Shown here: piece after piece, positions 3,501 to 28,300 of the stretch | Layout: each line of letters starts with the position of its first letter | Numbering within the stretch: the stretch's first letter is position 1 | Source: Lishizhenia tianjinensis | GTDB lineage: Bacteria; Bacteroidota; Bacteroidia; Flavobacteriales_D; Crocinitomicaceae | Reading direction: 5' to 3' | Assembly (NCBI RefSeq): GCF_900116425.1 | Contig: NZ_FPAS01000003.1 | Location: forward strand, 186,001-250,000 | Length of the DNA stretch: 64,000 nt | The notes under the pieces: generated by a model | What the model saw: the letters and a program-made list of their open reading frames with translations, nothing else | Told to the model about the DNA's origin: nothing | Databases searched by the model: none | Translations under genes and position numbers: made by a program

Positions 3501-3502
3501 TC

Positions 3503-3544
3503 GTTTATTTGTAGCATTAATATTATTTCATGTTACAAATAAAC
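3503..3544. promoter_or_regulatory. Perfect 11-bp inverted repeat, likely operator of the CBASS operon
   Basis: GTTTATTTGTA (3503-3513) and its exact complement TACAAATAAAC (3534-3544) are separated by 20 bp, so the half-site centres are 31 bp apart, about three helical turns on one DNA face. It ends 2 bp before the CBASS start codon, in the 92-bp gap after the WYL gene. WYL proteins of the CapW type repress CBASS through such palindromes, so this is the natural operator candidate. That link is inferred. Confidence 0.65.
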
Positions 3545-3592
3545 AAGGAGATGACGCCCCCTATGTTCGTGATCAAAAAAAGTTTAAATCAT

Positions 3593-4582: not shown

Positions 4583-4585
4583 AGG

Positions 4586-6550: not shown

Positions 6551-6555
6551 GACAC

Positions 6556-9072: not shown

Positions 9073-9151
9073 ATTTCTTTATTCTATATCAGACTCTTTT
9101 CCTATTGATTCCATTAATTAGGAAACGTAAGATTAAGAGGAAGACTATCCA

Positions 9152-9514: not shown

Positions 9515-9792
9515 ATAGTTGATTTTAGTTTTTCTCTTAATTCGTTGAGTGATACTATTTCCTGTCCCTTTTTTATACCCCAATATGTCCAACCGTTGAG
9601 ACTTAGTTTCTCAATCCATCTCGCTGCTCCACTTGGATACTCATAAGTTTTTTCAACTCCATCAGACACAACGGTAATTGTTCCATTTTCATTCAGTTTC
9701 CCAAGTTTCTCCCCAGTCTTAACTTTATAGAGATCTGTCGAAGGTTGTAGCAAATCATTTTTGATTAAATCTTCAATTGTAATTTCTGCCAT
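9511..9792 (-). CDS. RAMA-domain protein
   Basis: A 93-residue protein consisting of little more than a RAMA (restriction enzyme adenine methylase associated) domain. It has a two-stranded 'DGVEKTYEYPSGAARWIEKL' stretch, followed by NGWTYWGIKKGQEIVSLNELR, the typical NGW-x-x-W core. RAMA domains are usually fused to methyltransferases or ParB-like proteins and are thought to bind DNA or modified bases. As a free-standing gene between a PD-(D/E)XK protein and an HhH protein, it looks like a separate recognition subunit. It starts 3 bp after the upstream stop. Confidence 0.75.
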   Translation of the reverse strand: MAEITIEDLIKNDLLQPSTDLYKVKTGEKLGKLNENGTITVVSDGVEKTYEYPSGAARWIEKLSLNGWTYWGIKKGQEIVSLNELREKLKSTI

Positions 9793-9795
9793 AAT

Positions 9796-10749: not shown

Positions 10750-10750
10750 A

Positions 10751-13513
10751 TTAATCTGTTACTGCTTGCCTAATATTAAAAAGTTGGGTTAAAGATTCAG
10801 TCACTGTCTCCATATACTCCTCAATGTTAAAAGCACTAAACACTGTGCGTTCGAAGTTAACTCGATCTTCTTGTTGCAATTCAATATCAAGGGGAAATCT
10901 TTCTCTGTTAAGTAGAGGTTGGAATGAATCAATGATTGCTTGACTGGACTCTTCATCCAGCAATTCAGGAGAGAGAATCCTAAAGTTTTCTTCAATTTTG
11001 TCTTTGCTTAGGTCTAATGCTCCAAGCCCTCTTCCAAATCCAAGTGACTCAATAAAGAACATACTCATAATACTATTAAGCAATGCATGTATTAGAATCA
11101 TTTCAGCTTCAGATTTATTTTCAAGAAGTGAAAAGCGAATTAACCTTTGGTCAACAAACGCTCTGTTTTCTAGTCTAGATATGAAAAGACTTTTATCGTA
11201 ATTTATATTGGCAACAAAATCTGCCATTGTTTCAGCTCTCATCTCGTACCACCTAGAACCAGTTCTTTGTAACACCTCTGTAAGAGGTCGTCCATTTGTG
11301 TTTGTTAAATTTTCAAAGCTTCTAATCCAATTCAGTGCTCCATTATGATTAAGAGCTTCTAAGGTGCTTATATCTTCGGAACAACAAAAAGCTTCTTTGT
11401 TTGGTCTGCAACTTAATCCTCTAGCTTGAGCCCCTCTTAGATTCTTTAAGACTGGTCTTATATAATCTGGTTCGATTCCATGCCCTGCCGCAGGATAAAA
11501 CATCGGATTCCAACCACGACGCTCTCCTCTTGCTATATCAAATATTTCGTTCACTGGTATAAACCTATCTTGAATATTTAAAATCCAATTCAGGTCGACA
11601 AATAAAGAACTCCATGATAGACCTAGTTCTTTTAGTTGGAGAATACGCTCGTTTGTATAAGAAACTGAAGAAACAATATCACTATTGTTTTTGAGAAGGA
11701 TATCGTCAGCAACAGCACTAACATCATCTATAGAATTTAAAGATTCTTCTAGCCTATGAAAACCAATAGCAGAAGTTGATAAAACAGTACTTGGATGTAC
11801 TCGTTTCTCGGCTATTAATAAGGTTGTAACGACATCAGCATTTTCAAACCATTTTCCATTTGCTGATATTACAATATGTTTTAGTTCATAGAAATATTGA
11901 AGTAATTGAATAAAGTCAGCACCATAATTTGTTCCTAACCACGCATTGGATAGGATCAAACCGATTTGACCTTCATCTTCCAAAATATTATAAAGATAAA
12001 AAGGGATATATGTGTAAATATCGCTTCTACCGGGTAAACTAAGGTCTGTTTCAACTTGATTTGAAATCCAATTATTTATTTGAGCAATATCTGGATTAAG
12101 GTGTCTTATATCCTCTTGCTGAATGAATGGTAAGTTAGATATTACATAACCGACTCGAGTAAATGGAATTGTAACATTTTGACCATTATTCGGATCTTTA
12201 AAGTTAATATTTTCACCAACAGACAGTTCAATTACATCCTTTCTGAATATTTTAAGAATTTTACCAAAATTTTCAGGTTTACTTAAGGACAGAGTCGCCA
12301 ACTGAATTGGAAAGGCATATTTATCAGAAGCCCAAATTGTGTTAATGACCTCATCATCAACGATACCAACTTCTGTTTTTATCTTAGCAGCTGATGCAAT
12401 GATAGTTCCTGTTCCACAACAAGGATCTAAAACTGATTTAGTTTTATCTGTGATTGTTATTCGAGCTAATAACTCTGCAAGCTTAACAGGTGTTGAAAAT
12501 TGACCTGCAATTCTACGTTTTGCATTATTTATAGAAGTCTGAAGTATATCATGCAATATTTTAACATCTATTCCAGCAATGTTAAGTTCTAATAAAAAAG
12601 TATTTAATTGAATGATTTGATTCCAAGCAGTTGTCGAAATATTTTCTTGCCCTATATTGATGCTGAAAATATTCCAGAAATTACAAGAATCTGTAATTTC
12701 TTTTAATAAATCTATTGCCTCGCTGACATCTGTATTGAAATCAATTAAATCAATTCTTTTCGCTTCATCAAAATAGTTTTTGATGATATGACCAAATACT
12801 ATTTTAATCACCCAATCGGTTAAAACCACTTTTGCAAGTACCTTATATTTATCTTCTGAAGTATATGCAGGATATTCATTGGATGAAGACCTCCACCAAG
12901 TATTGATCTGAGCGTTAAGAATGTTATTAGATCTTGATCCGTTGATTAATTCTTGGGCTGTTGCATCAGTGTTTTCTAGTATAATGTCAATAACTGAAGT
13001 TAAGGAAAGAACTTCTGCTGCAATTCTCCCCATTATACGTCCTGACTCAAAATAACTAAATAGAGTTTCTAAAATATTATCAAGAAGTTCCTTCCAAATT
13101 TGTTCATTATCCTTTACTTCAGAACGATTGTTGATTCTTATGTCATCCCAACTATATAAAATTTCAAAGTCATCCGAATCGACTTCAGATCTTACATATA
13201 GAACAGCGGATTTAACATTCCAGAGTACAAAACTATCCAGTTTAAGGATATTAGCTTTAAGTATGGCATTTGATATTAATTCACTGTCATTTATTGCCGT
13301 ATCAGGCATTTTTAATTCCCACCCCTGTATTATCTCCCCTTGATTTTTATCTCCAAACAATAAAACATCTGGGAATAAGCTTGATCTATTATTCTTTATT
13401 GTATTTTCTCCTCCTGCCCCTTTTATCCTTTTATCTCTATTGGATAAATAAACATTAATATGGGAGATAACGTCAATCGCCCAGCTTCGTTCATTATAAT
13501 TTACAACTGGCAT
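10751..13513 (-). CDS. PD-(D/E)XK nuclease / N6-adenine methyltransferase fusion (type IIG-like)
   Basis: A 920-residue protein. The N terminus has a nuclease-type motif, FPDVLLFGDKNQG...GWELKMPD (about 47-70), in a context like HsdR N-terminal domains. The middle has the gamma-class methyltransferase motifs: QFSTPVKLAELL near 340, SVLDPCCGTGTIIASA near 360 (motif I) and YVISNLPF near 462 (motif IV with Leu in place of the usual Pro, NLPF). The C-terminal 300 residues look like a target-recognition region (FDIARGERRGWNP). The start overlaps the end of the upstream methyltransferase by 13 bp. It probably modifies and cuts DNA in one chain. NLPF is unusual and might reduce methylation. Confidence 0.82.
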   Translation of the reverse strand: MPVVNYNERSWAIDVISHINVYLSNRDKRIKGAGGENTIKNNRSSLFPDVLLFGDKNQGEIIQGWELKMPDTAINDSELISNAILKANILKLDSFVLWNVKSAVLYVRSEVDSDDFEILYSWDDIRINNRSEVKDNEQIWKELLDNILETLFSYFESGRIMGRIAAEVLSLTSVIDIILENTDATAQELINGSRSNNILNAQINTWWRSSSNEYPAYTSEDKYKVLAKVVLTDWVIKIVFGHIIKNYFDEAKRIDLIDFNTDVSEAIDLLKEITDSCNFWNIFSINIGQENISTTAWNQIIQLNTFLLELNIAGIDVKILHDILQTSINNAKRRIAGQFSTPVKLAELLARITITDKTKSVLDPCCGTGTIIASAAKIKTEVGIVDDEVINTIWASDKYAFPIQLATLSLSKPENFGKILKIFRKDVIELSVGENINFKDPNNGQNVTIPFTRVGYVISNLPFIQQEDIRHLNPDIAQINNWISNQVETDLSLPGRSDIYTYIPFYLYNILEDEGQIGLILSNAWLGTNYGADFIQLLQYFYELKHIVISANGKWFENADVVTTLLIAEKRVHPSTVLSTSAIGFHRLEESLNSIDDVSAVADDILLKNNSDIVSSVSYTNERILQLKELGLSWSSLFVDLNWILNIQDRFIPVNEIFDIARGERRGWNPMFYPAAGHGIEPDYIRPVLKNLRGAQARGLSCRPNKEAFCCSEDISTLEALNHNGALNWIRSFENLTNTNGRPLTEVLQRTGSRWYEMRAETMADFVANINYDKSLFISRLENRAFVDQRLIRFSLLENKSEAEMILIHALLNSIMSMFFIESLGFGRGLGALDLSKDKIEENFRILSPELLDEESSQAIIDSFQPLLNRERFPLDIELQQEDRVNFERTVFSAFNIEEYMETVTESLTQLFNIRQAVTD

Positions 13514-14439
13514 TCTAATTCTTGGATTAAATAATTATCTACTTCAATTTGATTTAACTTAGAAACTGATAGTTCATCAATGTTATCATTAATTTCTTTG
13601 AGTCTTTTTTTGCTCGGTTTCTTATTTGATTCGAGTAAAACCTCCTCCAAACGCATTCTGATTCTTTCTTTCTTCGCCCAGTCAATTCTTTGATTGCATA
13701 CTTTTATGAAATCTGTTTCCTTATTTTTGAACTGAACCGAACCCTCATTCAATTCTATACCGATAAAATTCCTATCCTCTAAAACTGCTGCTACCATAAA
13801 ACTCCCACTTCCACAGGTATTGTCAAGCACAATATCATTTTTCTTTGTAAACGTTCGTATAAAATATCTTCCCAGCTCTACAGGTTTTTGAGTTGGATGA
13901 TACACTTCTCCTTCCGATTCAGCTGTTTTGAAATAAATAATATCGGTAGGATATCTTTTACCTTCACTTTTAACTTCAACAGGTTTAAAATCACCATAAC
14001 TTCCTGATAATTGATTCTTACGAACTCCTTTGTTGTATGGTGTTCCATCTTTCATTTGAGGTACATATAAAGGTTGCTTTTTATAGAATATGCAAACATC
14101 CTCATGTTTACGGAGAGGTTGTTTTTTGGCATTAAGAAAATTGGTTGGTTTAGATTTTTCCCAAACGATTTTGTATTTGAACATTTTCTCGTTGCTCAAA
14201 ATTAGTTTTGCGGTGAATATTCCTTGAGAAGTCAAAACAATTGCTCCATTAGGTTTAACAATTCTGTTATAATCTTTCCAAAGTTTATTAAGAGGGATAA
14301 CACTGTCCCATTTATTCTGAGTAGTACCATAAGGAAGATCACATAAAACCATGTCAATACTATTGTCAGGTATTGATTTCATAACTTTCAAGCAATCTCC
14401 TTGATGTATCTTGTTCAATAATTCTTCAATTTTTTTCAT
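13501..14439 (-). CDS. DNA (N4/N6-amino) methyltransferase, beta class
   Basis: About 312 residues from the ATG at 14439 (an ATG at 14445 is also possible; longer readings run far into the regulator gene). Motif IV comes first (DMVLCDLPYGTTQNKWD, about 29-45; DLPY in place of DPPY). The SAM-binding motif follows late (HPTQKPVELGRYFIRTF and DNTCGSGSFMVAAV near 205-235), the order of beta-class enzymes in Pfam N6_N4_Mtase. It overlaps the XRE regulator by about 14 bp and the next gene by 13 bp. It is likely the protective methylase of the operon. A Lys/Glu-rich helical C-terminal tail of about 60 residues follows the core. Confidence 0.9.
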   Translation of the reverse strand: MKKIEELLNKIHQGDCLKVMKSIPDNSIDMVLCDLPYGTTQNKWDSVIPLNKLWKDYNRIVKPNGAIVLTSQGIFTAKLILSNEKMFKYKIVWEKSKPTNFLNAKKQPLRKHEDVCIFYKKQPLYVPQMKDGTPYNKGVRKNQLSGSYGDFKPVEVKSEGKRYPTDIIYFKTAESEGEVYHPTQKPVELGRYFIRTFTKKNDIVLDNTCGSGSFMVAAVLEDRNFIGIELNEGSVQFKNKETDFIKVCNQRIDWAKKERIRMRLEEVLLESNKKPSKKRLKEINDNIDELSVSKLNQIEVDNYLIQELECQL

Positions 14440-14638
14440 TTTCATATTCTTCGGTAGAGATAAGTAATTCATTAACATCAACCTTTAATAACTTAGCTAT
14501 TTCATACAGCAATTCTAAACTTGGTTGTCTGCGATTATTACAGTATTCGTTAACCATGCTGAAACTTTTGTTGAGCTTCTCAGATAGCCAAACCTGTTTA
14601 ATACCTTTTTCTTGCAACACCTCTTTTATTCGGTTCAT
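14426..14638 (-). CDS. XRE-family regulator, controller (C)-protein-like
   Basis: A 70-residue protein that is a single Cro/CI-type HTH (IKQVWLSEKLNKSFSMVNEYCNNRRQPSLELLYEIAKLL). It is the first gene of the restriction-type operon and overlaps the methyltransferase start. A 9-bp inverted repeat covers its own start codon, which is the arrangement of an autoregulator. Controller proteins of restriction-modification systems have this size and delay nuclease expression on entry to a new host. That role is inferred. Confidence 0.85.
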   Translation of the reverse strand: MNRIKEVLQEKGIKQVWLSEKLNKSFSMVNEYCNNRRQPSLELLYEIAKLLKVDVNELLISTEEYENEKN

Positions 14639-16805: not shown

Positions 16806-17312
16806 ATGAAGAATTTGAAATACATAGCAATTGGTTTAGGATCATTCTTAGGTATCCGATACTTACTCTCTTTAAAAAGAGCAGGCGAAAAAGTTGTGAT
16901 TAAAGTATCAGGGCAACGAGATCAAATAACAGCTCAAGGGATCAGCATTAGGATTCATTACAATATTCAGAATCCGACCAGAGCAACGATCAAAATGACC
17001 CCACCATTAATCAAACTTTCATCAGGAGGTCAATTACTAGCAAGTAGCACAATGCAAGAAGTGGAAATTCCTTCTTCGGTCAAGGACGCAAAGGGCAGAA
17101 TCATTATGAACGCTTTCGCAGAGACAGGGAATATCACTACTAAAATTCTAGTGCCATGGTTGAGTGTAGTGGCTATTAGTCCACAACTATTAACCCGTTT
17201 GCAAAGCAATGACCCAGCAGACAAAGTGAAAATCGACATAGAGACTTTCACTCAATTATTCACAATGGCAGGAGATTATCCCTACCAAGAGAAAACAAGT
17301 GTATCACTATGA
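16806..17312 (+). CDS. Membrane-anchored WHy/LEA14-like domain protein
   Basis: A 168-residue protein. An N-terminal hydrophobic helix (about 4-23) is followed by a beta-sandwich of the WHy/LEA14 kind: ISIRIHYNIQNPTRATIKM (about 47-65), where the NPT in a beta strand is the usual signature, then paired strands up to residue 150. WHy domains are Ig-like and occur in stress and virion proteins; the function here is unknown. It overlaps the next gene start by 4 bp (ATGA). Confidence 0.6.
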   Translation: MKNLKYIAIGLGSFLGIRYLLSLKRAGEKVVIKVSGQRDQITAQGISIRIHYNIQNPTRATIKMTPPLIKLSSGGQLLASSTMQEVEIPSSVKDAKGRIIMNAFAETGNITTKILVPWLSVVAISPQLLTRLQSNDPADKVKIDIETFTQLFTMAGDYPYQEKTSVSL

Positions 17313-19081
17313 AAGCAGGAAAGAGACATATCAAAGGCGGAGATCAATTCAACGCAATGTTTCCAATTCCAGAGGGGAAAACGCAGCTCATCAAAAAAGC
17401 TGCAAACCTTGAAGATACACTCAAGTTGATGAAACAGATAACGGCAACAACGCTTGAAGATACAGCGACCATTGCCGAATACCTGAAAGCATCTACTGAA
17501 AAACAGACTTGTTCAAACATCTGGAATTTCTGTTTCAATCATTTGCAATACACAAAGGATGAAATGGGGAAAGAACAAGTTCGCAGACCATCCAGAGTTT
17601 GGCAAGACAGAAAGGAGGGCGTGGATTGCGATTGTATGAGCGTGTTTATTGGCTCAATCTTAACGAATCTGGGAATTCCATTTGCGTTTCGATTAACCAA
17701 GTATCAGTCACCTGAATTTGAACACGTGTACCCAATTGCATACACAAAGAACGGAGTATTAATCTTGGATGCTGTGGTTCACAAGTTCAACCGTGAAGTG
17801 CCGTATTCCGCTAAAAAAGACATCAAAATGGATTTAGAGTATTTAAACGGTTTTGACGAGGATGCCGAATTCGATCAGTTCACAGAAATTGATGAGATCC
17901 TCGAAAATGACTTTCCAATTGATGCTCAAGGAATAGTCGAACTGGAAGGTTTAGAAGGTAGAGCTGAAAGGCAAGCCCGAAAAGCCAAAAGAAAGGCTAA
18001 GAGAGCAGAAAAGAAAGCGAACCGCCCTCCATTAAAAGAGCGATTGAAAAAAGGACTGAATGTGATTAACAAATTCAATCCTGCCACAGCACTTCTTCGT
18101 GCAGGAGTTTTGGCAAGTATGAAATTGAATGTAATGAACGTAGCAAGTAAATTAAGATTTGCTTATTGGTCAGACAGTCAAGCTCGCCAAAACAACATGG
18201 ACTTGAACAAATTCAACCAGTTGAAGCGAATTCGTGAGAAGATGGAAAAGATCTTTTTTGGAGCAGGTGGAAAAACAGAAAACCTGAAAAAAGCCATCCT
18301 ATCAGGTAAAGGAAATAGAGACCGAAGAGTAACCTTAAATGGACTTGGAGAGATCATCTATCCAGTACATGACGATCAGGATTTAAGAACCATTCTTGGA
18401 GACGAACTCTTTGAAGATGAAGTTGGAGAATCTGGAGTAAATGGATTGGGCGCAGTTGCAACGGCTTCAGCCATAGCAGCAGCTTCAGGAGTAATTGGAA
18501 CACTTGCAGCTTTAATTAAAAAGCTAGGAAGCCTATTCAAGTCTGGTTCGCCACAGGCAGACCAAGAAATAGTACAAGACAATACGGCTGCCGAAGAGGA
18601 AAAAACCAGACGTTTCAATTTTAAGAATTTGGTAAACAACTTCAAGAACAGAAACAGCAATGTAACAGATCCGACCACTCAGGCAACAGCACCAATTGTC
18701 GATCCCTCAATTCCAGAAGATCAAACATTCGATCCTGCCATGTATGATGATGAAGCTTCATTCACTAGAAGTGCAGAAGTTACACCAGAAGATAAGCCAG
18801 ATGAAAAGAAAGGTGTTGTTGGATGGATCAAAGAACATCCTTTGCTGACCGCAGGAATTGCAACGGCAGTTGTTGGAGGAACTATTCTAGCAGTAAGAGC
18901 TGCCAAGAAGAAAAAGGGATTAGCAGGAGTTCCAAAAAAGAAGAAGACAAAAAGTAAACCCACAACGGCTAAAAAGCGCAAGACTCCTGCTAGGAAAAAG
19001 CCTGTGCGAAAAAAGCCAACCAGACGCAGAAAAAAACCAGTTAAACGGTCAACCTCTGTAAGAAAGGTGGAGCTGCTTTAA
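17309..19081 (+). CDS. Transglutaminase-like cysteine protein with membrane segments and a basic tail
   Basis: A 590-residue protein. Residues 65-160 show a transglutaminase-like triad: Cys107 in GVDCDCMSVF, His139 in FEHVYPIA, Asp154 in LILDAVV. Such domains in mobile elements are often peptidases or cross-linking enzymes. An Ala/Gly-rich hydrophobic region lies near 374-400 and a clear membrane helix near 515-535 (LLTAGIATAVVGGTILAV). The last 50 residues are an extremely basic Lys/Arg/Pro/Thr tail of histone-H1 character, which could bind DNA. This combination suggests a structural protein linking membrane and nucleic acid. It is coupled to the preceding gene by ATGA. Confidence 0.7.
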   Translation: MKAGKRHIKGGDQFNAMFPIPEGKTQLIKKAANLEDTLKLMKQITATTLEDTATIAEYLKASTEKQTCSNIWNFCFNHLQYTKDEMGKEQVRRPSRVWQDRKEGVDCDCMSVFIGSILTNLGIPFAFRLTKYQSPEFEHVYPIAYTKNGVLILDAVVHKFNREVPYSAKKDIKMDLEYLNGFDEDAEFDQFTEIDEILENDFPIDAQGIVELEGLEGRAERQARKAKRKAKRAEKKANRPPLKERLKKGLNVINKFNPATALLRAGVLASMKLNVMNVASKLRFAYWSDSQARQNNMDLNKFNQLKRIREKMEKIFFGAGGKTENLKKAILSGKGNRDRRVTLNGLGEIIYPVHDDQDLRTILGDELFEDEVGESGVNGLGAVATASAIAAASGVIGTLAALIKKLGSLFKSGSPQADQEIVQDNTAAEEEKTRRFNFKNLVNNFKNRNSNVTDPTTQATAPIVDPSIPEDQTFDPAMYDDEASFTRSAEVTPEDKPDEKKGVVGWIKEHPLLTAGIATAVVGGTILAVRAAKKKKGLAGVPKKKKTKSKPTTAKKRKTPARKKPVRKKPTRRRKKPVKRSTSVRKVELL

Positions 19082-19110: not shown

Positions 19111-19740
19111 ATGAAAAAGAAGAAAAATAGCAATAAATCTGGCTCTATGCTTGAGAAGTATAAAGCCAAGAAAACCAAAGGCAACATTGCCAACACAGGA
19201 TTAAAAACCCTAGTGGACTTGGTTGTCGGAGCTACACTTGGCGCAGGTATTGGCGCAACAACAGGTCGAGCAGCTCTTCCAGTAGGAATCTTACTTATGG
19301 CAGGTAGCCATTACTTTGATGAGGACACAGGAGTTCTCAGAATCGCAGGAGGTGCAACCATTGCCTACGGAATTGGGAAAGCAATCGAACATCAAAATAT
19401 TGCAGCAGCTCAAGCAGTAAATGGATTCACACTTGCAGGAGAGCAAACCAAAGCCAAAACAAGGCTTACGCAATTCAAAGATGAAGTGTTTACTGCCTTT
19501 TACTTGAACAAGATTTTCAAGAAAAAAGAAGATGCACCAATATCGGATGACCAAGCAGTCGGATCAATTGATCTTTCTCCTTTAGAGATCTACGAAACAA
19601 ATAACCGCAGAGAAGCCATTCAATATGAGATGAACCAAGAAGATGACTTTGAAGAGTTATCAGGCGGATATGATTACGAAAATCCAGAAGAGTACTCATT
19701 CGCAATGATTGAGGAAGATCCCGATTTAAGTCACATATAA
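19111..19740 (+). CDS. Gly/Ala-rich membrane protein
   Basis: A 209-residue protein. A Lys-rich N terminus is followed by small-residue hydrophobic segments (about 35-50 and 55-70, and again 80-90) rich in GxxxG (VVGATLGAGIGATTG). A helical, acidic C-terminal half follows, ending PEEYSFAMIEEDPDLSHI. No family is recognised. It precedes the candidate capsid gene and could be an inner-membrane or scaffold protein of a particle. Confidence 0.6.
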   Translation: MKKKKNSNKSGSMLEKYKAKKTKGNIANTGLKTLVDLVVGATLGAGIGATTGRAALPVGILLMAGSHYFDEDTGVLRIAGGATIAYGIGKAIEHQNIAAAQAVNGFTLAGEQTKAKTRLTQFKDEVFTAFYLNKIFKKKEDAPISDDQAVGSIDLSPLEIYETNNRREAIQYEMNQEDDFEELSGGYDYENPEEYSFAMIEEDPDLSHI

Positions 19741-19790: not shown

Positions 19791-20501
19791 ATGACAGATG
19801 ATGTAATGAATAGCGAATACAACAACGTTGGAGAGTTGTTTGGAATTGGCGAACTGGAAAGAGCAACCCAAGGGATGTCTCCAGTAAAAAAAGCAATGTT
19901 TATCAAAAGAATTGCAGGACAAGTCCACAGTTCAAGAAGATCACGTGGCGAAATGGAAAAATTCTTCAAACAGCTTCCAAAGCACGTAAAAGGAGAATTA
20001 CTCAAAGGAGGTGTAAGACTTGCGGATTACACAATTTACTCAACCAAACTGATCACTTCAAAAACGATCAAAATGTTTGAGCCACAAGACGACAAAGAAG
20101 TTGCTGTGAGAAATATCTCCAATGCAAAGTTGCCTAAGAACATGGTTTTCTTAGTGAGTGGAATTATTCTTTTGACAGGGAAAATTCCAGATCCACAGGA
20201 CAAGGAATCAATAAAGGCAATCAATTTTGGAAGTGTTAGTAGAGTGCCTGCAATTGCAAATGGCGAATTCAGCTTGAAAGCAAATAGAAAACAAATTGTA
20301 CCAGAGAACCAATCTATCAGAAGGTTCATCACGGACAATGATACAACAGTGCCTTTAGGCTACTACAAGTTGGACAATCCGAGATTAATCAGAGATGAAG
20401 AGTTGATTGAATTTACAGTTGAATTGGGAACTATGTTCAACATCCCCAACAACGAACAATACCTCTACATTGGATTAGACGGTACTGGAACCACTCCTTG
20501 A
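19791..20501 (+). CDS. Candidate major structural (jelly-roll capsid-like) protein
   Basis: A 236-residue soluble protein. The first 90 residues are helical and basic; from about residue 105 it is predicted to be nearly all beta strand (PKNMVFLVSGIILLTGK, then GEFSLKAN, PLGYYKLDNPRLIRDEE, LIEFTVELGT, YLYIGLDGTG). The pattern 'YYKLDNP..I..ne.IeF.v.L' ending in a short strand before a Gly-rich tail is what one sees in viral jelly-roll proteins. The gene is flanked by two stem-loops and separated from its neighbours, as expected for a highly expressed gene. The capsid role is inferred and needs structure prediction. Confidence 0.5.
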   Translation: MTDDVMNSEYNNVGELFGIGELERATQGMSPVKKAMFIKRIAGQVHSSRRSRGEMEKFFKQLPKHVKGELLKGGVRLADYTIYSTKLITSKTIKMFEPQDDKEVAVRNISNAKLPKNMVFLVSGIILLTGKIPDPQDKESIKAINFGSVSRVPAIANGEFSLKANRKQIVPENQSIRRFITDNDTTVPLGYYKLDNPRLIRDEELIEFTVELGTMFNIPNNEQYLYIGLDGTGTTP

Positions 20502-20525
20502 TTTCTTGCCAAGGTAAGTTTGGTA

Positions 20526-20552
20526 GCTGTGGCATCCCTCTTTAGCCACAGC
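20526..20552 (+). promoter_or_regulatory. Stem-loop after the candidate capsid gene
   Basis: GCTGTGGC (20526-20533), 11-nt loop, GCCACAGC (20545-20552): a perfect 8-bp stem, possibly extended by GGT/GCC with a bulge. No T-run follows (the next bases are CTGCCAGACTAAAAAA), so it may stabilise the 3' end of the upstream message or be a weak terminator. Confidence 0.5.
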
Positions 20553-20600
20553 CTGCCAGACTAAAAAACAAATCATTAAGCACATATAAAATCAATTGAA

Positions 20601-20996
20601 ATGAGTTACAAGCATAACATCATAAAGGAACGTTTTGACCTAAAAATCACCAGTCCGAACCAAGTTTTTAAAGGCGAATTTGAACTGGATAAGAACGCCA
20701 ATTTCCTTATTGGTATTGGGTTAACGTCAGATAGAGATGATCTACTTTTCTATCGTGGAACGCAAAAAATTCAAGTGAATGACCAAGAGTTGTTTCCTGA
20801 AGAATTTGAAAGCCGACTACTCATGTCAGGGGTTAATGTTTCCCCTAATGATCGAATGATCAAGGTTGGGAAAATTGAAACAGGGAATGGACGTGTTGAG
20901 ATCTGGTTTAAAGATCAAGATCACCCTTTAGCCAAGTTCACTCCTTACCGAGTAACCATCTACACCTTTTCAAAAGTTGATTGCAATAATGATTAA
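20601..20996 (+). CDS. Small beta-rich protein, candidate minor capsid protein
   Basis: A 131-residue soluble protein predicted to be mostly beta: FDLKITSPNQVFKGEFELDK, FLIGIGLTSDRDDLLFYRG, KIQVNDQEL, RVEIWFKDQD, YRVTIYTFSKVD. Length and strand pattern fit a single jelly-roll or Ig-like fold. It shares with the next gene product an 'I-N-G/D-x-Q' turn in mid-chain and a final 'Y-x-(V/L)-x-I-Y' strand, so the two may be distant paralogues. The stop overlaps the next start (ATGATTAA). Confidence 0.55.
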   Translation: MSYKHNIIKERFDLKITSPNQVFKGEFELDKNANFLIGIGLTSDRDDLLFYRGTQKIQVNDQELFPEEFESRLLMSGVNVSPNDRMIKVGKIETGNGRVEIWFKDQDHPLAKFTPYRVTIYTFSKVDCNND

Positions 20997-21507
20997 GCGA
21001 ATTGTACATATCGTTCGTGTCAAAAGACAAGGAGAAAAGCTACAATTTCAAGTTAAGCTGCCATCAAATGTCAATCAAATATTGTCGATATGGGCAACTG
21101 CAAATCCTGCCGAGAAAAGACAAGTTGTTGGAGATGTAATTGAAGATTTACAGCCAGTTGAAAAGCTTTTAATTCGTCCAGTTTTTCCAATCAAACCACT
21201 AGCAAGATCAATAGACTACAACAAAGAAATTGGCTGGCTATGGATGAGACTATCAGAGTGCAGAGATGTGTTCTACACCCAGATTATTAGACAAAGTGAT
21301 AAGCTGTTTAATCAGTCCATTCACTTACACAAAAGTCCAGGGGATTTTGGTGGAGGTCTATTCTGGATTAATGGCAAACAACATCAAGAATTTAATCTGA
21401 CGGCAGAGCCAGATACGCAAGTTTTGGAGGGCTATTATGTTGACCGATTTGGGACTGGTTTAGCAGACTTCTACGAATTAAAAATCTACTTAACACTTGA
21501 GGTATGA
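20989..21507 (+). CDS. Beta-rich protein, candidate capsid/spike protein
   Basis: 172 residues from the ATG at 20989, which overlaps the preceding stop; a TTG at 20977 is an unlikely alternative. It is predicted beta-rich: KRIVHIVRVKRQ, LQFQVKLP, LSIWATAN, GGGLFWINGKQHQEFNLTA, VLEGYYVDRFG, FYELKIYLTLEV. It resembles the preceding product in its closing strands. Paired small jelly-roll proteins are known as major capsid proteins in some membrane-containing phages, so the adjacent, overlapping pair is notable. It overlaps the next start by 4 bp. Confidence 0.55.
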   Translation: MIKRIVHIVRVKRQGEKLQFQVKLPSNVNQILSIWATANPAEKRQVVGDVIEDLQPVEKLLIRPVFPIKPLARSIDYNKEIGWLWMRLSECRDVFYTQIIRQSDKLFNQSIHLHKSPGDFGGGLFWINGKQHQEFNLTAEPDTQVLEGYYVDRFGTGLADFYELKIYLTLEV

Positions 21508-21830
21508 CAGAAGGATTAGCCATAGAGATTGCCGAGCGCAAAATGAAAGAGTTGGGAGTTGGAGATAACTACCTCATACGGTTAAGACATTTTCAAATTC
21601 CACCTGCTAGTAAGATTGAATTGGATGCAGAAAACGAACTCTTGATTCTAGTTAAGCCAGATGAATATGTCAAGATGTATTCCAAGGCAGGGATCTTCAA
21701 TTTAAGAGATAACCGCATCAATGAAATGCAATATATCCACCGAGGGAAAACATGGATTATCAACCAAGAAACCAAACGCTACTTGCAGGTCAAAATCATT
21801 CAGGTAATACCGAACATAAAATTGAAATAA
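21504..21830 (+). CDS. Small beta-rich hypothetical protein
   Basis: A 108-residue soluble protein with alternating hydrophobic strands (NYLIRLRHFQIPP, KIELDAENELLILVK, KTWIINQETKRYLQVKIIQVIP). No recognised domain. It is tightly coupled on both sides (4-bp overlap upstream, 1-bp gap downstream), so it probably belongs to the same structural block. Confidence 0.6.
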   Translation: MTEGLAIEIAERKMKELGVGDNYLIRLRHFQIPPASKIELDAENELLILVKPDEYVKMYSKAGIFNLRDNRINEMQYIHRGKTWIINQETKRYLQVKIIQVIPNIKLK

Positions 21831-21831: not shown

Positions 21832-22590
21832 ATGGAAGAAATATTTGAAAATAAGAACCCCAAAAAGACGGGTAAAGTGTTTAATGAACCATACAACATT
21901 CAGCGTATCAATCGGCTGAAAGGAATTATTAAAGGGATTCATGAACAAGGAGGATGTAAGTTCTACTCAATTTTTGTGGACGGGGAAATGGTAGTAGCGA
22001 AGAACGACAACATTGAGCTTTTTGACAACTACCATCAATACATGGAACCGAATACACAGCAAGTTGAAATTCGATTGCACTTCGGTAGATCCCCAAATTG
22101 CAACAGACATATTTTCCATACCAATCAAACGGCATTAAGTGGTGTACCTGCAAAGGATGTGGAGCAGCGAATCAAAGAAGCTTTGGAAAAGCAAAAAATG
22201 GAAACGGAAATCGACCTTTTGAAAAAAGAGTTGAAACGAAAATCCAAAAAGCTCAAGCAATTCAAAACACTTCAGGCAGAACTGGACGACAAGCAGATCG
22301 ACATCAAGGATCTGATAAAACAAGGAATGGAGATTTACGGTCAGTTCAATGCTAACAAATCAGGAGCAATAAATCCTACTGTTCATGGTGCGCCAGAAGT
22401 TGAAGTGGAGGTTGAATCAGAACCAGAAACAAAAGCGGATAAGCATTATCAGAAAATGAAAAATGAATACTCCGAAAAAGAACTGGAGAAAGCATTAAAG
22501 ACGTGGGAAATATTCACGGCTTACCCAGAACTCAGAAAGGAATTCACAGAATTAGTTAATCATAAAATCAAGCAAAATGGAGAAGCATAA
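21832..22590 (+). CDS. Coiled-coil protein of the structural block
   Basis: A 252-residue protein. The N-terminal 95 residues are compact and mixed (GCKFYSIFVDGEMVVAKND). A long heptad-rich segment follows (about 105-165; IDLLKKELKRKSKKLKQFKT), then an acidic linker (VEVEVESEPETKAD) and a helical C-terminal domain. No family is recognised. A trimeric or dimeric fibre, scaffold or internal protein is possible. The end overlaps the next gene by 14 bp. Confidence 0.6.
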   Translation: MEEIFENKNPKKTGKVFNEPYNIQRINRLKGIIKGIHEQGGCKFYSIFVDGEMVVAKNDNIELFDNYHQYMEPNTQQVEIRLHFGRSPNCNRHIFHTNQTALSGVPAKDVEQRIKEALEKQKMETEIDLLKKELKRKSKKLKQFKTLQAELDDKQIDIKDLIKQGMEIYGQFNANKSGAINPTVHGAPEVEVEVESEPETKADKHYQKMKNEYSEKELEKALKTWEIFTAYPELRKEFTELVNHKIKQNGEA

Positions 22591-22759
22591 GTTCACAATT
22601 AGCATTTCGGGCAGCAAAAAAGAAGCAACCGAAAAAGTAAATGGTTTAGCGGTTTTAGCAGCCTATTTATCAACTGACACAATCAAAGCATTGGCAAAAG
22701 TGGTCAAAGAAGATCCTGCCAAGGTGGAGTTTGCCAAACACTACTTAGGAGTTTCCTAA
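22577..22759 (+). CDS. Very small conserved-looking protein
   Basis: A 60-residue protein: a beta start (HKFTISISGSKKEATEKVNG) followed by two helices (ALAVLAAYLSTDTIKALAKV and DPAKVEFAKHYLG). Overlap with the upstream coding end and good fit to the gene chain support it. Function unknown. Confidence 0.55.
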   Translation: MEKHKFTISISGSKKEATEKVNGLAVLAAYLSTDTIKALAKVVKEDPAKVEFAKHYLGVS

Positions 22760-22777: not shown

Positions 22778-23530
22778 ATGAAAAATGAAGTAATGATACA
22801 GCCACAACAACAGCAGCCCACCACACAAATTGTGTTGGATCAGGAAAAGCGTTCATGGTGGAACAGCTTGACGGATAAACAACGTCACGCCATTACTTCA
22901 TTGGCAATTGTTCTAGGTATTTCAGTTGTAGCTGTAATTGCAATAAAGTTCGCATCAAATCAAGTACGAGAAGCCATAGCTAACAAAGAGGAGAACAACA
23001 GTTTTGGATCTAAGGATCATGCGACTTGGGCAAAGCAACTTAAAAATGCTTTTGACAATGACGGTTGGTGGGGAACGGATGAGGTCGCAGTTCGACAAGT
23101 GTTGAGAGCAATACCATCACAGGAGGACTTTCAAAAGGTTCAAACATCCTATCGAAAACTGTACAAAGGAGCAAACCTCATTGAAGACATGACCAGCGAG
23201 TTGAAAACAAGTGAATTCAATGAAATGCTTGCCATTGTTCAGGCTAAACCTCAAAAGGCGAAAGATGCTGGATCACCAATTTATGATCCGCATGGTTGGG
23301 CAAAACGATTGTACAGCGCATTAGACTACGCTTGGTTAGGGCTTTTCTGGGGAACAGACGAAGATGCGGTCTTAGCTGTGTTTAGTGAAATCCCAACTCA
23401 AAAAGCTTTCAACGAAACAGCACAGGTTTATGCCAATATGTATGGTACTTCTCTAGCAGATGATTTAGATGGAGACCTTGACTGGACAATGGATTGGCGA
23501 GAAAAAATCAAGAAGAAACCAAAAAGTTAA
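22778..23530 (+). CDS. Membrane-anchored protein with two annexin-like repeats
   Basis: A 250-residue protein. A Gln-rich N terminus is followed by one membrane helix (about 40-60, LAIVLGISVVAVIAIKFA) and two repeats of about 75 residues. Each has W-A-K-x-L, then WGTDE (99-102 and 192-195), A-V-x-x-V-(L/F), I-P-(S/T)-Q, a Tyr-rich helix and a (N/S)L-(I/A)-(E/D)D step. This is the annexin-type helical repeat pattern, in which GT-D/E forms the calcium or membrane-contact loop. Such repeats would let the protein bind lipid or pack as a layer on a membrane. Confidence 0.65.
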   Translation: MKNEVMIQPQQQQPTTQIVLDQEKRSWWNSLTDKQRHAITSLAIVLGISVVAVIAIKFASNQVREAIANKEENNSFGSKDHATWAKQLKNAFDNDGWWGTDEVAVRQVLRAIPSQEDFQKVQTSYRKLYKGANLIEDMTSELKTSEFNEMLAIVQAKPQKAKDAGSPIYDPHGWAKRLYSALDYAWLGLFWGTDEDAVLAVFSEIPTQKAFNETAQVYANMYGTSLADDLDGDLDWTMDWREKIKKKPKS

Positions 23531-23550: not shown

Positions 23551-24468
23551 ATGGAAAAGAAAACGAAATATATTTTAATCGGTCTGGGTGTGGTAGCAGT
23601 TGGTACTGGGGCGTATATCTTCTATCAACAAAGAAAGAAAAAGCAAGCCAATACCCAACGTGATTTTGAATCGGCAATCAATAACAACACATTGCCATTG
23701 CCAACAACAACATCATTACCATCAAAACCGAGTAGTTCAGGATCTAGCAGTAGTGGTTTTCCACTCAAAAAAGGTAGTAAAGGAACGCTAGTAACAAGTT
23801 TGCAAAAGGCACTCATCAAAAAGTACGGAGCTTCCATTCTCCCAAAATGGGGCGCAGATGGATTTTTCGGATCAGAAACAGTCAATGCCTTAATCTCAAA
23901 AGGTCTTCCAACATCAGTTGATTCAGACACTTTCACAAGTATTGTACTTAGTTCTGGTTCAAGTTCAGGATCTTCTAGTGTGCCAGATGTATTGGCAGAT
24001 GATACGGCTTCAGCCATCTCAAATAAGTTACACAAAGGAATAGCAGCCAAAGATGGTGGAATTGTTTTACCTGCTTTGCGAAAAATTCGAGATGTAAACC
24101 ACTACAAAGAGGTTAGCACAATCTTCAAGCAAACCAAAATTGGATGGGTAAGCAAAACCATTGTAACAGCACTTCTTGACGCATTTAAACTAGCATCTAA
24201 TAGAAAGAAAATCAACGAACATTTCTATCGAATTGGATTGAAGTATGACGGATCTAAATGGTCATTATCAGGTTTTCTAGGTGTAATAGATCAATTGGTA
24301 ACTATCCAACCAACCTATGTGTGGAATGATGCAGGTCACAAGCTGCAAGTTCCAAAGGACACAATTCTGGGCGAATACTTAGATGCAAACAATGGCGTGA
24401 CTGAATTTGAAACGCTTGACGGCAGAAGATTATTCGTGAATACTAATCAAATAAGATACGCACAATGA
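23551..24468 (+). CDS. Membrane-anchored peptidoglycan-binding protein
   Basis: 305 residues from the ATG at 23551; the frame is open back to a TTG at 23494 inside the preceding gene. It has an N-terminal membrane helix (about 6-24), a Ser/Thr/Pro linker, then a PG_binding_1-type domain (about 70-125: LKKGSKGTLVTSLQKAL, WGADGFFGSETVNAL). After a Ser-rich linker a degenerate annexin-like repeat (about 150-200) and an SH3-like C terminus (LQVPKDTILGEYLD, RRLFVNTNQIRYA) follow. It overlaps the next gene by 4 bp. It could anchor a particle or lysis complex to the cell wall. Confidence 0.75.
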   Translation: MEKKTKYILIGLGVVAVGTGAYIFYQQRKKKQANTQRDFESAINNNTLPLPTTTSLPSKPSSSGSSSSGFPLKKGSKGTLVTSLQKALIKKYGASILPKWGADGFFGSETVNALISKGLPTSVDSDTFTSIVLSSGSSSGSSSVPDVLADDTASAISNKLHKGIAAKDGGIVLPALRKIRDVNHYKEVSTIFKQTKIGWVSKTIVTALLDAFKLASNRKKINEHFYRIGLKYDGSKWSLSGFLGVIDQLVTIQPTYVWNDAGHKLQVPKDTILGEYLDANNGVTEFETLDGRRLFVNTNQIRYAQ

Positions 24469-25148: not shown

Positions 25149-25353
25149 GAAAATATCATATAGCAAGTTAACCTTTATCCTTTCAGTTATTGGTTTTCTT
25201 GGTAGTCTGGGATTCTATTTCGGAGTATTGAGAGAGATCTATTCCGAACCAGATTCAAAAGTAGTAATCGAACGATTAGAAAAAGAAAACAAAGAGTTAA
25301 AAACCCAAGTCAAGGTATTGACTGGAATGGTGGACGAATGTAAAGATGAGTAA
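25141..25353 (+). CDS. Small TM plus coiled-coil protein (spanin-like topology)
   Basis: 70 residues from the ATG at 25141 (a second ATG at 25132 is in the same frame; both overlap the preceding gene). One membrane helix (about 10-28) is followed by a heptad segment (VIERLEKENKELKTQVKVL). This is the topology of an inner-membrane spanin-type subunit. No partner lipoprotein is seen, so the resemblance is only in form. It overlaps the next gene by 8 bp. Confidence 0.6.
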   Translation: MSKKISYSKLTFILSVIGFLGSLGFYFGVLREIYSEPDSKVVIERLEKENKELKTQVKVLTGMVDECKDE

Positions 25354-28300
25354 ATCAAGAGAACATATCATTTCAAAAGCGGAGCGAGAATTTGTCAATA
25401 AAATCAAAGAAGCCTTACTGAAAGAACAAAAGCTATCCAGACCAAAAACGGAAAGCATAGCTAAGTCTTTTGGTATTATCGATAAGACAAAAGTGAAAGA
25501 GTTAACTGAACAAGCCATTGTTGAAGTAGCTCGCTCCATCTCCCTTTCAAATGATAGTCCTTTTGATAAATACCAGAACATAGTAGATCTATATTCCATT
25601 CAAACCAATTTATCCTTTAGAACCAGTATGAGTGTGTTATTACAACAATACTCAACGCCTGCGCCAATTGGTTATTTAATGGGACTTTATTGTGGGATAG
25701 ATGATGGAGAAAAGACATTGTTTGAACCATCAGCAGGAAATGGACTACTAACCATTGCTACCAGACCATCCAAAGTAACTGTAAATGAGATTGACCCAAT
25801 TAGAAGAAGAAATCTAAAAAGCCAAGGTTACAATGGTACTTACGCATTAGATGCAAGTCAGGAGTTTCACAGGTTCGCTAGAAAGTTTGATGCCGTAATT
25901 ACCAATCCTCCTTTTGGAAGATTAAGTAAAGCTGCGGATCACAATGGATTTTTAATCCGTGAACTCGATCATCACATGGCAATCCTAGCATTGCAGACTA
26001 TGAAGACTAATGGTAGAGCAGCAATAATTGTTGGTGGTCATACCGTTTGGGATGAAAGAGGTCGAATCCAAAAAGGGAAAAACAGAATCTTCTTCAATTA
26101 TCTCTACAAGCATTACAACATAGATGATGTGATTCTAATTGATGGAAGCAGTTTGTATTCACGTCAAGGTACTTCATTCAACACTCGATTAATCCTAATC
26201 AACGGAGTGAATAAGCAACAAAGCGGAGTTGCTCCTCTCAAAACTACCGATCAAGCCACAGTAGTTAAATCATTTGATGAACTCTATAACAGAATTAGTA
26301 TGCACTTTCCAAATAAAAATAACCAGTTAAGTAAGCTTGAGTTAGAAGCTCTGGAGCTTGAAAGTCAATTGTTAGCACAAGAATTGGGCGCACCGTATGT
26401 TCCTGCATCCGATTCTTGTGTTATTCTAGATACGCAAGTTCCAGATGCTATGGAGTTTGAAATGCACCAAGCCATTTCAAGAATTAAAGAAGATGTTGGA
26501 GGGGACATAGATAATTTCGTTCGTCACCGTCTAGGCTACAATACAAAAGCCGAATTGTGTCGATCACTTTCTGCCGAACAAATTGATGCAGTTGGAATGG
26601 CAGTTTATAATATTGAAGCACTTAACCAAGCAGTAATAATTGGAGATCAAACAGGTATTGGTAAAGGTCGAGTGGCTGCATCTATTATTCGCTATGCGGT
26701 TCATCAGGGCATAATGCCCATTTTTCTTACCGAGAAATCCAATCTGTTTTCGGACATCTACAGAGATCTATCAGCTATTGGTTCAGCTCATTTAAAGCCG
26801 TTTATAGTTAATGCTAGAGCTAGTAAAACTCAAATCAAAGATGAGAATGGAAATGTAGTGTATGAAGCGTTATCAAAACCAGAACAAGATCAAATTTTTG
26901 AAGATCGAAAAATTCCAAGTGAATACGATTTTGTTGTAGCTACTTATTCTCAATTCAACTCACCACAAAAGAAACCTCAAAAACCACAATTCCTATTATC
27001 CATTGCTAAAAACAGCATCATCATAATGGATGAAAGTCATAATTCTAGCGGGTCATCCAATACAGGAATTTTCATGCAAGGTGTATTGGCTAGAACTTCT
27101 GGTGCTGTGTTTTTATCGGCAACATTCGCTAAGCGACCAGACAATATGCCCATCTATGCTATGAAAACGGCTATTTCAGAAGCGAATATGTCAAAAGAAG
27201 ACTTGGTAGATTCGATCAACAAAGGTGGAGTTGCATTGCAGGAAGTGTTAGCCAGTCAATTGGTGGCTGAAGGTCAAATGATAAGAAGAGAAAGAACCTA
27301 TGAGGGAATCGAAGTAAACTACATAACACTTACAGATAAAGCCAATGAGCATAAAGCAATAGCCGACAATATCACAAACATTGTTCGAGATATTATCGCT
27401 TTTCAAACTAATCATATTGACAATCGAGTTGATGAGTTGGATGAAATAGCAGCAGCCGAGGGAAAAGAAGTTGATTTAAGAGAGGGAACAAACCAAGCAG
27501 GAGTTGATAACCAACCATACTTTTCAAAAGTATTCAATGTGATTAATCAAATGCTTTTCTCCATCAAAGCAGAAGCGGTTGCTGAAAAAGCCATTGCACG
27601 ATTAAAAGAGGGCAAAAAGCCAATTATAGCATTCGCTAGTACTATGGGTAGTTTCATTGAGCAAATGGAAGATCAAAACGGAATGCCAGTAAATCATGGA
27701 GATACAGTAAAAGCAGACTTTTCAATCGTTTTGGAAAAAGGACTTGAAGGTGTTATGCGCTATACTGTTACTGAACCTGATGGCTCTAAGTCGTATGCAA
27801 AATTTGATATTGCCGAACTATCAATTGATGCACAAGAGGAATACTTTAGAATTGCAGAAAACATCAAGAAGATAGCAACGGGAATTACAATTTCTCCGAT
27901 TGATGTCATAATCCAGAAAATTCAAAAAGCAGGTTATTCAGTTGCGGAAGTAACAGGAAGAAAACTACAACTTCAGCTCAACTTACAATCAGGTATGGGA
28001 GTGATTGAACCACGAAAGAAAGTCAACACCAATGATGCTTTCAGAGAGTTCAATAACAATGAAGTTGATGTTTTACTCATTAATCAATCTGGTAGTACAG
28101 GAGCTTCAGCCCATGCAATCGTAACAGATAAAGTTTCAGCAGATGAAGTGAGACAACGGGTTATGATTGTTCTGCAACCAGAACTTGACATTAATACAGA
28201 AGTTCAGAAAAGAGGTCGAATTAATCGTACTGGTCAGATTCTTAAACCAATTTATGATTACGTAAATTCTGCCATTCCTGCCGAACAACGTTTAATGATG

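Follow-up and report, generated by a model that had tools for sequence, protein, structure and literature searches.

A conserved block of predicted single jelly-roll protein genes in a mobile element of Lishizhenia tianjinensis, a probable provirus apparently related to phage SSIP-1

The stretch of 64,000 nucleotides (nt) of the Lishizhenia tianjinensis contig NZ_FPAS01000003.1 analysed here (the window, from whose first base all positions are counted) carries three adjacent genes coding for proteins of 236, 131 and 172 residues (aa). They lie in a conserved gene block of an integrated element, which we regard as a likely provirus of a tailless virus. The original prediction considered all three products to be jelly-roll capsid candidates. 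Their genes were found at the predicted positions and with the predicted lengths, and the last two do overlap, by 8 nt; the 172 aa product starts at an ATG, and an upstream TTG would give 176 aa. The three are real genes, since relatives occur in the same order in most of the 90 stretches of DNA fetched for comparison and dN/dS is low, without stops or gaps. Pfam and NCBIfam gave no matches for the three proteins, PHROGs gave merely one chance-level match (131 aa protein, E 0.22), and a profile search of PDB sequences returned nothing for the 236 aa protein and chance-level matches for the other two.

The AlphaFold2 model of the 236 aa protein (72 sequences, pLDDT 86.5, pTM 0.79) has helices at its N-terminus and eight strands according to DSSP (residues 76-87, 92-95, 119-131, 159-164, 167-175, 191-201, 206-211, and 223-235). 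The model of the 131 aa protein (69 sequences, pLDDT 91.0, pTM 0.82) also contains eight strands, so that the strand-rich character expected from the sequence pattern was recovered in both. Eight strands per model amount to one barrel, and a double jelly-roll was rejected for either protein. Foldseek found two matches to the 236 aa model in PDB at E ≤0.001: the FLiP penton protein, which is the top one by E-value (5.7e-4) with low TM-scores (0.18/0.27), and the capsid protein of Sulfolobus polyhedral virus 1 (SPV1; E 6.1e-4, probability 1.00, TM 0.38/0.47). VIA aligned the SPV1 protein over 147 residues (Z 8.3, 3.7 Å), the longest alignment among the VIA rows listed. It also matched a PBCV-1 capsid chain (Z 8.5, 124 residues, 3.6 Å), several capsid proteins of large viruses (Z near 8) and capsid chains of P23-77, SH1 and HCIV-1 (Z 7.0); according to VIA's own note, a best Z of 7-8 is frequent for models without clear relatives. 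Many of the BFVD matches of the 236 aa protein were unnamed proteins which could not be identified.

For the 131 aa model no Foldseek match reached E 0.001; a KHP40 cement protein came closest (2.5e-3), ahead of BcsB, GOLD and others. VIA matched it to the Pam1 capsid-unit chain (Z 8.1), HHIV-2 chain b (8.0) and SPV1 (7.8). The jelly-roll assignment of both proteins combines the strand pattern with these fold matches, the strand connectivity being taken from the matched folds and not from inspection of the coordinates. The predicted folds of the two are jelly-roll-like, and such a fold alone does not separate capsid proteins from cellular jelly-rolls.

The 172 aa protein is a predicted jelly-roll by its homology to the 131 aa protein alone. 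Their families are homologous according to hhalign (probability 88.8%, E 2.5e-6; 95.6%, E 1.1e-8), in agreement with the closing-strand features that had been noticed in both. Profile comparison of the 236 aa protein with these two did not reach significance (P 0.017 for a short motif; 0.32). The jelly-roll capsid candidacy is thereby sustained at the level of prediction: AlphaFold2, Foldseek and VIA put the 236 and 131 aa proteins with single jelly-rolls, and these two models yielded neither another fold nor an assignment to tail or non-structural proteins.

Conservation was expressed as the mean pairwise identity of eight families compared on the same 68 loci. The 236 aa family is the most conserved (64%), followed by the 131 (52%), 590 (44%), 108 (44%), 209 (37%), 168 (36.5%) and 252 aa (30%) families. 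The 172 aa family is the most variable (27%; its members measured 104-314 aa in this comparison). Three further families, measured on smaller sets, gave 64.5% (helicase), 55% (227 aa) and 53% (60 aa). The dN/dS of the 172 aa gene, 0.23, is also the highest of the three (0.07 for each of the other two).

The original prediction had ascribed a pair of stem-loops to the 236 aa gene, and both are present: a strong hairpin (-28.1 kcal/mol) in the 99 nt gap downstream of the stop codon, and a small one (-9.7) in the 50 nt gap upstream of the start. In 51 representatives with less than 90% capsid identity, the gaps were compared with their dinucleotide shuffles. The downstream hairpin is conserved, reaching z < -2 in 33 of the 38 testable downstream gaps (25-400 nt), as against 14/50 upstream gaps and 2/30 and 0/6 in two control gaps.

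The gene order of the relatives was read from iterated hidden Markov model (HMM) searches over the open frames of the 90 fetched stretches (L007-L096, with three places each divided between two of them). It is fixed: 168 - 590 - 209 - 236 - 131 - 172 - 108 - 252 - 60 - 250 - 305 - 227 - helicase - ATPase. With fragments included, matches were found in 87 stretches for the 236 and 131 aa families, 84 for 172, 590 and 252, and 83 for 209 and 108; the 83 stretches counted for the 168 aa family are an inflated figure, as its profile also picks up the 590 aa family. The later genes are under-counted, as the stretches end there (60 aa in 76, 250 in 75, 305 in 67, 227 in 60, helicase in 58 and ATPase in 21 stretches). 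Among the eight loci extending at least 1 kb past the helicase gene the ATPase family is present in seven, the exception being L025. A single 236-type gene is found in 85 of the 87 stretches. One exception, L044, has a split gene; the other, from Longitalea luteola (L072, 9974-11340), is the only locus with a tandem pair (239 and 207 aa). As its copies are only 51% identical and are not grouped in the tree, we do not claim a recent duplication there.

Membrane segments were called by a simple hydropathy rule and compared with shuffled sequences. They are frequent in the 590 (69/75 against 12/75 shuffled), 250 (55/70 against 6), 305 (44/64 against 7) and 227 aa (25/56 against 3) families, which fits the expectation for a membrane-containing virion, and less so in the 209 aa family (30/80 against 8). 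For the 236 (15/82 against 16) and 168 aa (47/72 against 41/72) families the comparison was uninformative. BLAST grouped the remaining open frames into clusters, among them a membrane-anchored lysozyme located between the 236 and 131 aa genes in 14 loci, an amidase (44 loci), a membrane-coiled-coil protein (44), a small protein having a pair of membrane segments (36) and a glucosaminidase (11); the clusters were checked with Pfam and PHROGs on one or two members each. The small cluster proteins can be read as holin- and spanin-like. The 168 aa protein opening the block is tentatively labelled "LEA".

Phage SSIP-1 (Salisaeta icosahedral phage 1), whose host Salisaeta belongs in or near Bacteroidota, is among the closest known viruses. 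A tblastn search of 50,697 phage records with the 590 aa protein found, at E up to 10, a single phage, namely SSIP-1 with its gp34 (two entries; E 4e-5, 26.5% over 125 aa). When the family HMMs were run against the 57 SSIP-1 proteins, the 590 aa family matched gp34 (5e-15; hhalign probability 97.4%) and the ATPase family matched gp40 (4e-17; 99.5%). The gp34 product is a Transglut_core protein, and both the ATPase and gp40 match Pfam AAA_24/25. Further HMM matches linked the recombinase to gp3 (6e-10), the helicase to gp43 (4e-4) and the 252 aa protein to gp29 (9e-4), and the remaining families gave nothing better than 0.004 among the 57 proteins. gp34 and gp40 are annotated as structural in NC_017983, from the notes of which all SSIP-1 gene-to-virion assignments used here are taken. 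In PMC4124505, gp40 is listed among predicted packaging ATPases.

gp45 and gp46 are mutually paralogous (E 1e-12). We consider them to be probably the two capsid proteins of SSIP-1, because of the NC_017983 notes, their mutual similarity and the reviews giving SSIP-1 two major capsid protein types. Three alignments were used to compare them with the 236 aa family, one (A1) of five sequences and two larger but narrower. With A1, hhalign gave a score of 29.9 for gp45 (P 0.0013, probability 18.0%) and 29.1 for gp46 (P 0.0018, probability 14.8%); none of 200 column shuffles scored as high in either case, the best for gp46 being 20.0. The alignments are co-linear in every case over 132-155 columns, that is most of the barrel. 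Among 21 block families the 236 aa family is the best match for gp45 (23.0, next 18.9), and the 209 aa family is the best for gp44 (28.3, next 21.4; P 0.0025 on 29 columns, a weak match), which fits the parallel order 209-236 and gp44-gp45/46. Homology of the 236 aa protein to gp45/gp46 is likely on these profile comparisons. A gp41 family was contaminated by gp40 via fused genes and was not used.

With gp46 as a query, relatives were found in 15 of the 395 sampled Bacteroidota genomes, 14 of the 15 within one family (f24); SSIP-1 is thus not alone. All 18 SSIP-1-like proviral loci fetched (L132-L149) have the order gp44 - one gp45/46-type gene - gp47 - gp48, a count made at an HMM threshold of 1e-4 that leaves room for a very divergent second gene. 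As relatives of gp47 and gp48 were not found among the block families compared, the elements described here are relatives of SSIP-1 and not members of its group.

The limits of the element are defined by comparison with G418, a genome from the same order but a different family, which carries window 14466-34671 at 96.4% DNA identity (Table 1). The left end is also common to both (window 1-372 at 93%, and the 33 nt before the window at 97%). It opens in both genomes with GGGTCAAACAT, where the similarity stops. At the right junction, the 3' end of tRNA-His (34594) falls on the sequence GGGT; the tRNA of G418 was read by eye. As the left motif and the right tRNA junction coincide in two genomes, the length of the element comes to about 34.6 kb; its right end carries the gene of a serine recombinase. 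Direct repeats could not be used: the only 12-base match in the window (465, 34703) is not at the ends and was ignored, and between the left and right junctions there are no 12-base matches and one 10-base match, which is at odds with the junctions in G418. The evidence for the insertion site is therefore the comparison of two copies and the 4-base core GGGT, which is weak on its own. An overlap of the recombinase frame with a tRNA gene recurs in G033 (Arg), L084 (Leu) and L087 (Leu); a fourth relative with this recombinase (L095) ends at a contig edge. The integrase comparison among the relatives covered this serine recombinase type only. At roughly 7.1-7.2 kb to the left of the window's first base (G000:C3, L117) there is a second copy of the left end (117 nt, 84% to the G418 left end), which suggests another element or a remnant in tandem at the same tRNA gene.

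The cargo differs between the two copies except for 4595-6032 (92%), G418 having a type I methylase and specificity subunit instead. The element is mobile, since a 96.4% identical copy in another family carries other cargo. Its genes are kept functional under purifying selection: dN/dS relative to the G418 copy is 0-0.25 in all 22 backbone genes, with no stops and no gaps (the recombinase was compared up to 34560 only, and ratios of short genes are rough, as they have few changes). Since the defence genes are not the same in the copies of the two host families, the elements may ferry defence systems.

Table 1. Features of the element and of its surroundings (window positions)
Feature	Positions	Strand	Basis
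Element left end	1-372; outermost base ~32 nt before window base 1, near G000:C3:185969		G418 comparison
Exchangeable cargo arm	427-14481	-	PADLOC, G418 comparison
CBASS cyclase	1480-2676	-	PADLOC
CBASS 2TM effector	2682-3500	-	PADLOC
WYL protein and Orf5/SspE-like protein	within 3596-14481	-	PADLOC
Type IIG restriction enzyme-methyltransferase	10754-13513	-	PADLOC
DNA methylase	13504-14481	-	PADLOC
Conserved element backbone	14466-34597		96.4% identity to G418
168 aa protein, opens the conserved block	16806-17312	+	profile searches of relatives
590 aa transglutaminase-like protein related to the SSIP-1 structural protein gp34; membrane segment at its C-terminus	17309-19081	+	tblastn, family HMM
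209 aa Gly-rich, possibly membrane protein; possible SSIP-1 gp44 counterpart	19111-19740	+	hhalign, weak
236 aa predicted single jelly-roll protein, proposed major capsid protein	19791-20501	+	AlphaFold2, Foldseek, VIA, hhalign to gp45/gp46
Gap holding the conserved hairpin, 3' of the proposed capsid gene	20502-20600	+	folding energy, shuffles
131 aa predicted single jelly-roll protein, proposed second capsid or vertex protein	20601-20996	+	AlphaFold2, Foldseek, VIA
172 aa protein paralogous to the one of 131 aa; exposed vertex or spike protein (proposed)	20989-21507	+	hhalign, conservation
108 aa conserved block protein	21504-21830	+	profile searches of relatives
252 aa block protein, coiled-coil by eye	21832-22590	+	profile searches of relatives
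60 aa block protein	22577-22759	+	profile searches of relatives
250 aa membrane-anchored protein, annexin-like repeat	22778-23530	+	Pfam Annexin 1.4e-6
305 aa membrane-anchored protein, endolysin-type region	23551-24468	+	PHROG endolysin 1.1e-7
227 aa endolysin-like protein, C-terminal membrane segment	24465-25148	+	phrog_3000 2.8e-31, phrog_33083 endolysin 2.6e-12
1552 aa methyltransferase and strawberry-notch helicase fusion	25346-30004	+	Pfam
496 aa RecA-like ATPase, SSIP-1 gp40 relative	30015-31505	+	family HMM, hhalign, Pfam AAA_24/25
Large serine recombinase, open frame runs into tRNA gene	33025-34683	+	Pfam Resolvase/Recombinase
tRNA-His, 3' end is the insertion site	34594-34668	-	ARAGORN, G418 junction

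Some of the neighbouring genes deserve a comment. The annexin-like repeat of the 250 aa protein is unexpected for a phage-like element. The 1552 aa fusion may have an anti-restriction role, given that DarB-like proteins and Bacteroides phage BS-TP4 are found among its phage relatives. A patatin-like phospholipase gene (31542-32720, Pfam 6.3e-26) is located between the ATPase and recombinase genes. It is present in the G418 copy and in one of the 90 stretches (L028), most of which end short of that place.

Relatives of the 236 aa protein are found in three of the 395 sampled Bacteroidota genomes, one of them being the genome of the window itself. Of 209 candidate stretches taken from 84,980 GTDB species genomes, 138 have a match. 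The best 80 of the 138 were kept for description, and their titles name Bacteroidota or its subgroups except for L017 (a Saccharospirillaceae metagenome-assembled genome) and L025. These 80 include named isolates, for instance Ohtaekwangia koreensis, Puia dinghuensis, Flavisolibacter nicotianae, Longitalea luteola and Sediminibacterium magnilacihabitans. Relatives also occur on two replicons of Persicobacter; a third match, at E 2, was ignored. In P. psychrovividus a divergent block lies beside replication and ParA genes on the 53 kb plasmid pPP10 (NZ_AP025302.1), and a second one on the 1.07 Mb replicon pPP1 (NZ_AP025293.1). As a divergent block is carried by such a plasmid and replicon, some relatives may live as phage-plasmids. 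Scans for Persicobacter-like intermediates found nothing new, and the A6 profile detected no further remote relatives, two short extra matches (E 0.016 and 0.037) being ignored.

Overall, we think it likely that the element is the provirus of a tailless, probably membrane-containing virus with the 236 aa protein as its major capsid protein and the 131 and 172 aa proteins as further jelly-roll capsid or vertex proteins. The capsid reading of the original prediction has gained from the location of the genes in an integrated element sharing structural-annotated proteins with SSIP-1. A main shell formed by the adjacent 131 and 172 aa proteins as a pair, which its analogy with P23-77 would suggest, has lost ground: the 236 aa protein is the likelier major capsid protein, because it belongs to the most conserved of the eight families, is followed by the conserved hairpin and gives the best alignment to gp45/gp46. 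We infer virions with a membrane, DNA packaging and a division of labour among the three proteins as follows. The 236 aa protein, a single jelly-roll with a helical N-terminal arm, would be the major capsid protein of a shell completed by the paralogous jelly-rolls of 131 and 172 aa. The former would most likely be the vertex (penton) base, or else a second shell protein, and the latter, evolving fast, may be an exposed vertex or spike part, as it is the most variable and has the highest dN/dS of the three. The membrane-anchored transglutaminase-like and endolysin-like neighbours would sit in the virion membrane and aid entry, DNA would be loaded by the gp40-like ATPase, and the serine recombinase would insert the genome at the 3' ends of tRNA genes. 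Peptidoglycan-cutting enzymes are present in the element and in its relatives.

Several observations weigh against this interpretation. Among the 50 VIA rows listed for the 236 aa model, 20 are PHM, a cellular copper enzyme (best Z 7.9, 108 residues, 2.5 Å). For the 131 aa model VIA also found PHM (7.7), TasA (7.6) and GOLD (7.3), and its structural matches taken together mix capsid and cement proteins with BcsB, GOLD, CUB, furin and TasA. The choice of the capsid gene may be wrong, as PHROGs gave the 250 aa protein a weak match (E 0.0059) to phrog_12830, named 'major head protein'. The ATPase resembles RecA/KaiC and differs from the FtsK type that known two-capsid-protein relatives have; its weaker matches include Sak4-like recombination proteins. 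As for SSIP-1, HMMER comparison of the 236 aa family with its proteins stayed at chance level (gp14 E 0.51, gp45 second with 0.75). The best of 200 A1 shuffles for gp45 reached 26.0 against the real 29.9. The larger alignments gave only 23.0-23.7 for gp45 (probability 2.6-3.2%) and 17.9-19.1 for gp46 (0.5-0.8%); the best of 60 shuffles for gp45 scored 23.0 against 23.7, a reversed profile scoring 13.0. For gp46 the 236 aa family is the best of the 21 only narrowly (17.9, next 17.7), and the 131, 172 and 108 aa proteins have no detectable counterpart in gp47/gp48. Finally, the 50,697 phage records contain no relatives of the 236 aa protein, and the 2.9 million viral contigs of IMG/VR yielded two loci in a pattern scan and none in another scan; with so few matches in viral and phage collections, there is no independent sign of free particles.

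The roles of the proteins could also be distributed differently. The 131 and 172 aa proteins may be the two major capsid proteins of a P23-77/SH1-like heteromeric lattice, leaving the 236 aa protein a minor or vertex position. Their genes are paralogous, adjacent and overlapping, the 131 aa model matches the HHIV-2 chain, and shells of paired single-barrel proteins are described for P23-77 and HHIV-2 in PMC4958249 and PMC5332951. We find this arrangement unlikely in view of the conservation values, the 172 aa family being the least and the 236 aa family the most conserved of the eight, and of the gp45/gp46 alignment, which involves the 236 aa protein and not the other two.

The element may also be a satellite or a defence-carrying island without a particle of its own, its capsid module serving to interfere with another virus or to hijack it. 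This would agree with a left arm rich in defence functions (CBASS and type IIG restriction-modification, with type I restriction subunits in G418). We hold it to be improbable, considering that the module is preserved as a block, that 22 out of 22 genes are under purifying selection and that an ATPase and lysis-type functions are present. The presence of PHM, TasA, BcsB and GOLD/CUB domains near capsids in the structural rankings could also mean that the jelly-rolls are cellular-type carbohydrate-binding or cell-surface proteins and the block a surface apparatus. Such an origin seems very improbable next to neighbours homologous to structural-annotated SSIP-1 proteins, a serine recombinase with insertion at a tRNA gene, a near-identical copy in another family and endolysin-type genes.

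Tailless, membrane-containing viruses with single jelly-roll capsid proteins are already known. As far as the literature matches listed show, what is new in our proposal is a broad set of integrated relatives in Bacteroidota which, besides one 236-type gene, have two further jelly-roll proteins paralogous to each other, carry defence genes and insert at tRNA genes by means of a serine recombinase; among these matches, no title or opening of an abstract concerns SSIP-1-like or single-jelly-roll proviruses of Bacteroidota. SSIP-1, the apparent relative, is a membrane-containing phage of a hypersaline habitat and has so far stood by itself as an oddity. A link to it would supply this virus type with hosts, numbers and lysogens that can be cultivated and, if our reading is true, the orphan virus would become part of a large group open to testing, which present viral collections nearly miss.

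Terminase, portal and HK97-fold capsid proteins, which mark the tailed phages, were all absent from the PHROGs scan of 20 element proteins (the cargo arm, patatin and recombinase lay outside the scan). A Caudoviricetes module was rejected, the 'major head protein' match of the 250 aa protein being the lone weak one. Finnlakeviridae (FLiP, PhiCjT23) are likewise tailless membrane-containing phages of Bacteroidota with jelly-roll capsids, but according to PMC9719478 and PMC6260650 they have a double-jelly-roll capsid protein, a single-stranded DNA genome of ~6-9 kb and dif-site integration. Helvetiavirae (P23-77, SH1, HHIV-2, HCIV-1) have, like the element as predicted here, single jelly-roll capsid proteins, more than one jelly-roll gene and an ATPase. 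Two single-jelly-roll major capsid proteins characterize them; the element has three predicted jelly-roll genes (two modelled, one by homology), one or more of which may build the lattice, and the profiles of these gave no matches to Helvetiavirae PDB sequences. Known members combine a two-protein shell with an FtsK-like ATPase, as PMC8812541 states. No FtsK-like ATPase was found in the backbone, of which five small genes, like most of the cargo, were not scanned by Pfam; the sole candidate is the RecA/KaiC-type AAA_24/25 protein. SPV1 (Portogloboviridae), like the element in our reading, has one single-jelly-roll major capsid gene, and its capsid protein matches the 236 aa model in fold without any sequence match to the 236 profile. 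It differs in its archaeal host, the window and the relatives listed being bacterial genomes or plasmids; PMC8812541 reports SPV1 to have no packaging ATPase.

SSIP-1 is described in PMC6356626 as a membrane-containing phage with a genome hardly like anything in GenBank, and there and in PMC4958249 it is placed among the tailless single-jelly-roll membrane viruses on account of its two capsid protein types. The element shares with it a gp34-type transglutaminase-like structural protein, the gp40 ATPase, and a virion-type lytic enzyme with a membrane segment (gp54); it has weakly similar counterparts of gp45/gp46 and of the upstream gp44 in the same order. A proposal in PMC8812541 derives two-capsid-gene viruses from a one-gene ancestor via duplication, and the finding of one gp45/46-type gene in 18 out of 18 SSIP-1-like loci and of two in SSIP-1 bears on it. 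We speculate, tentatively and aware that the odds are rather against it, that the elements and the SSIP-1-like proviruses form a large double-stranded DNA virus lineage built around one single-jelly-roll capsid gene and a gp40-type ATPase. The two genes of SSIP-1 would then be a later duplication, and the lineage, having a RecA/KaiC-type motor of its own, would be the missing intermediate between the one-gene SPV1-like state and the two-gene Helvetiavirae. SSIP-1 itself differs from the elements in having two gp45/46-type genes, no relatives found of the 131, 172 and 108 aa proteins, a 43.8 kb genome and a 2319 aa gp43 that is weakly like the helicase protein, whereas the elements, unlike SSIP-1, carry a large serine recombinase and defence cargo.

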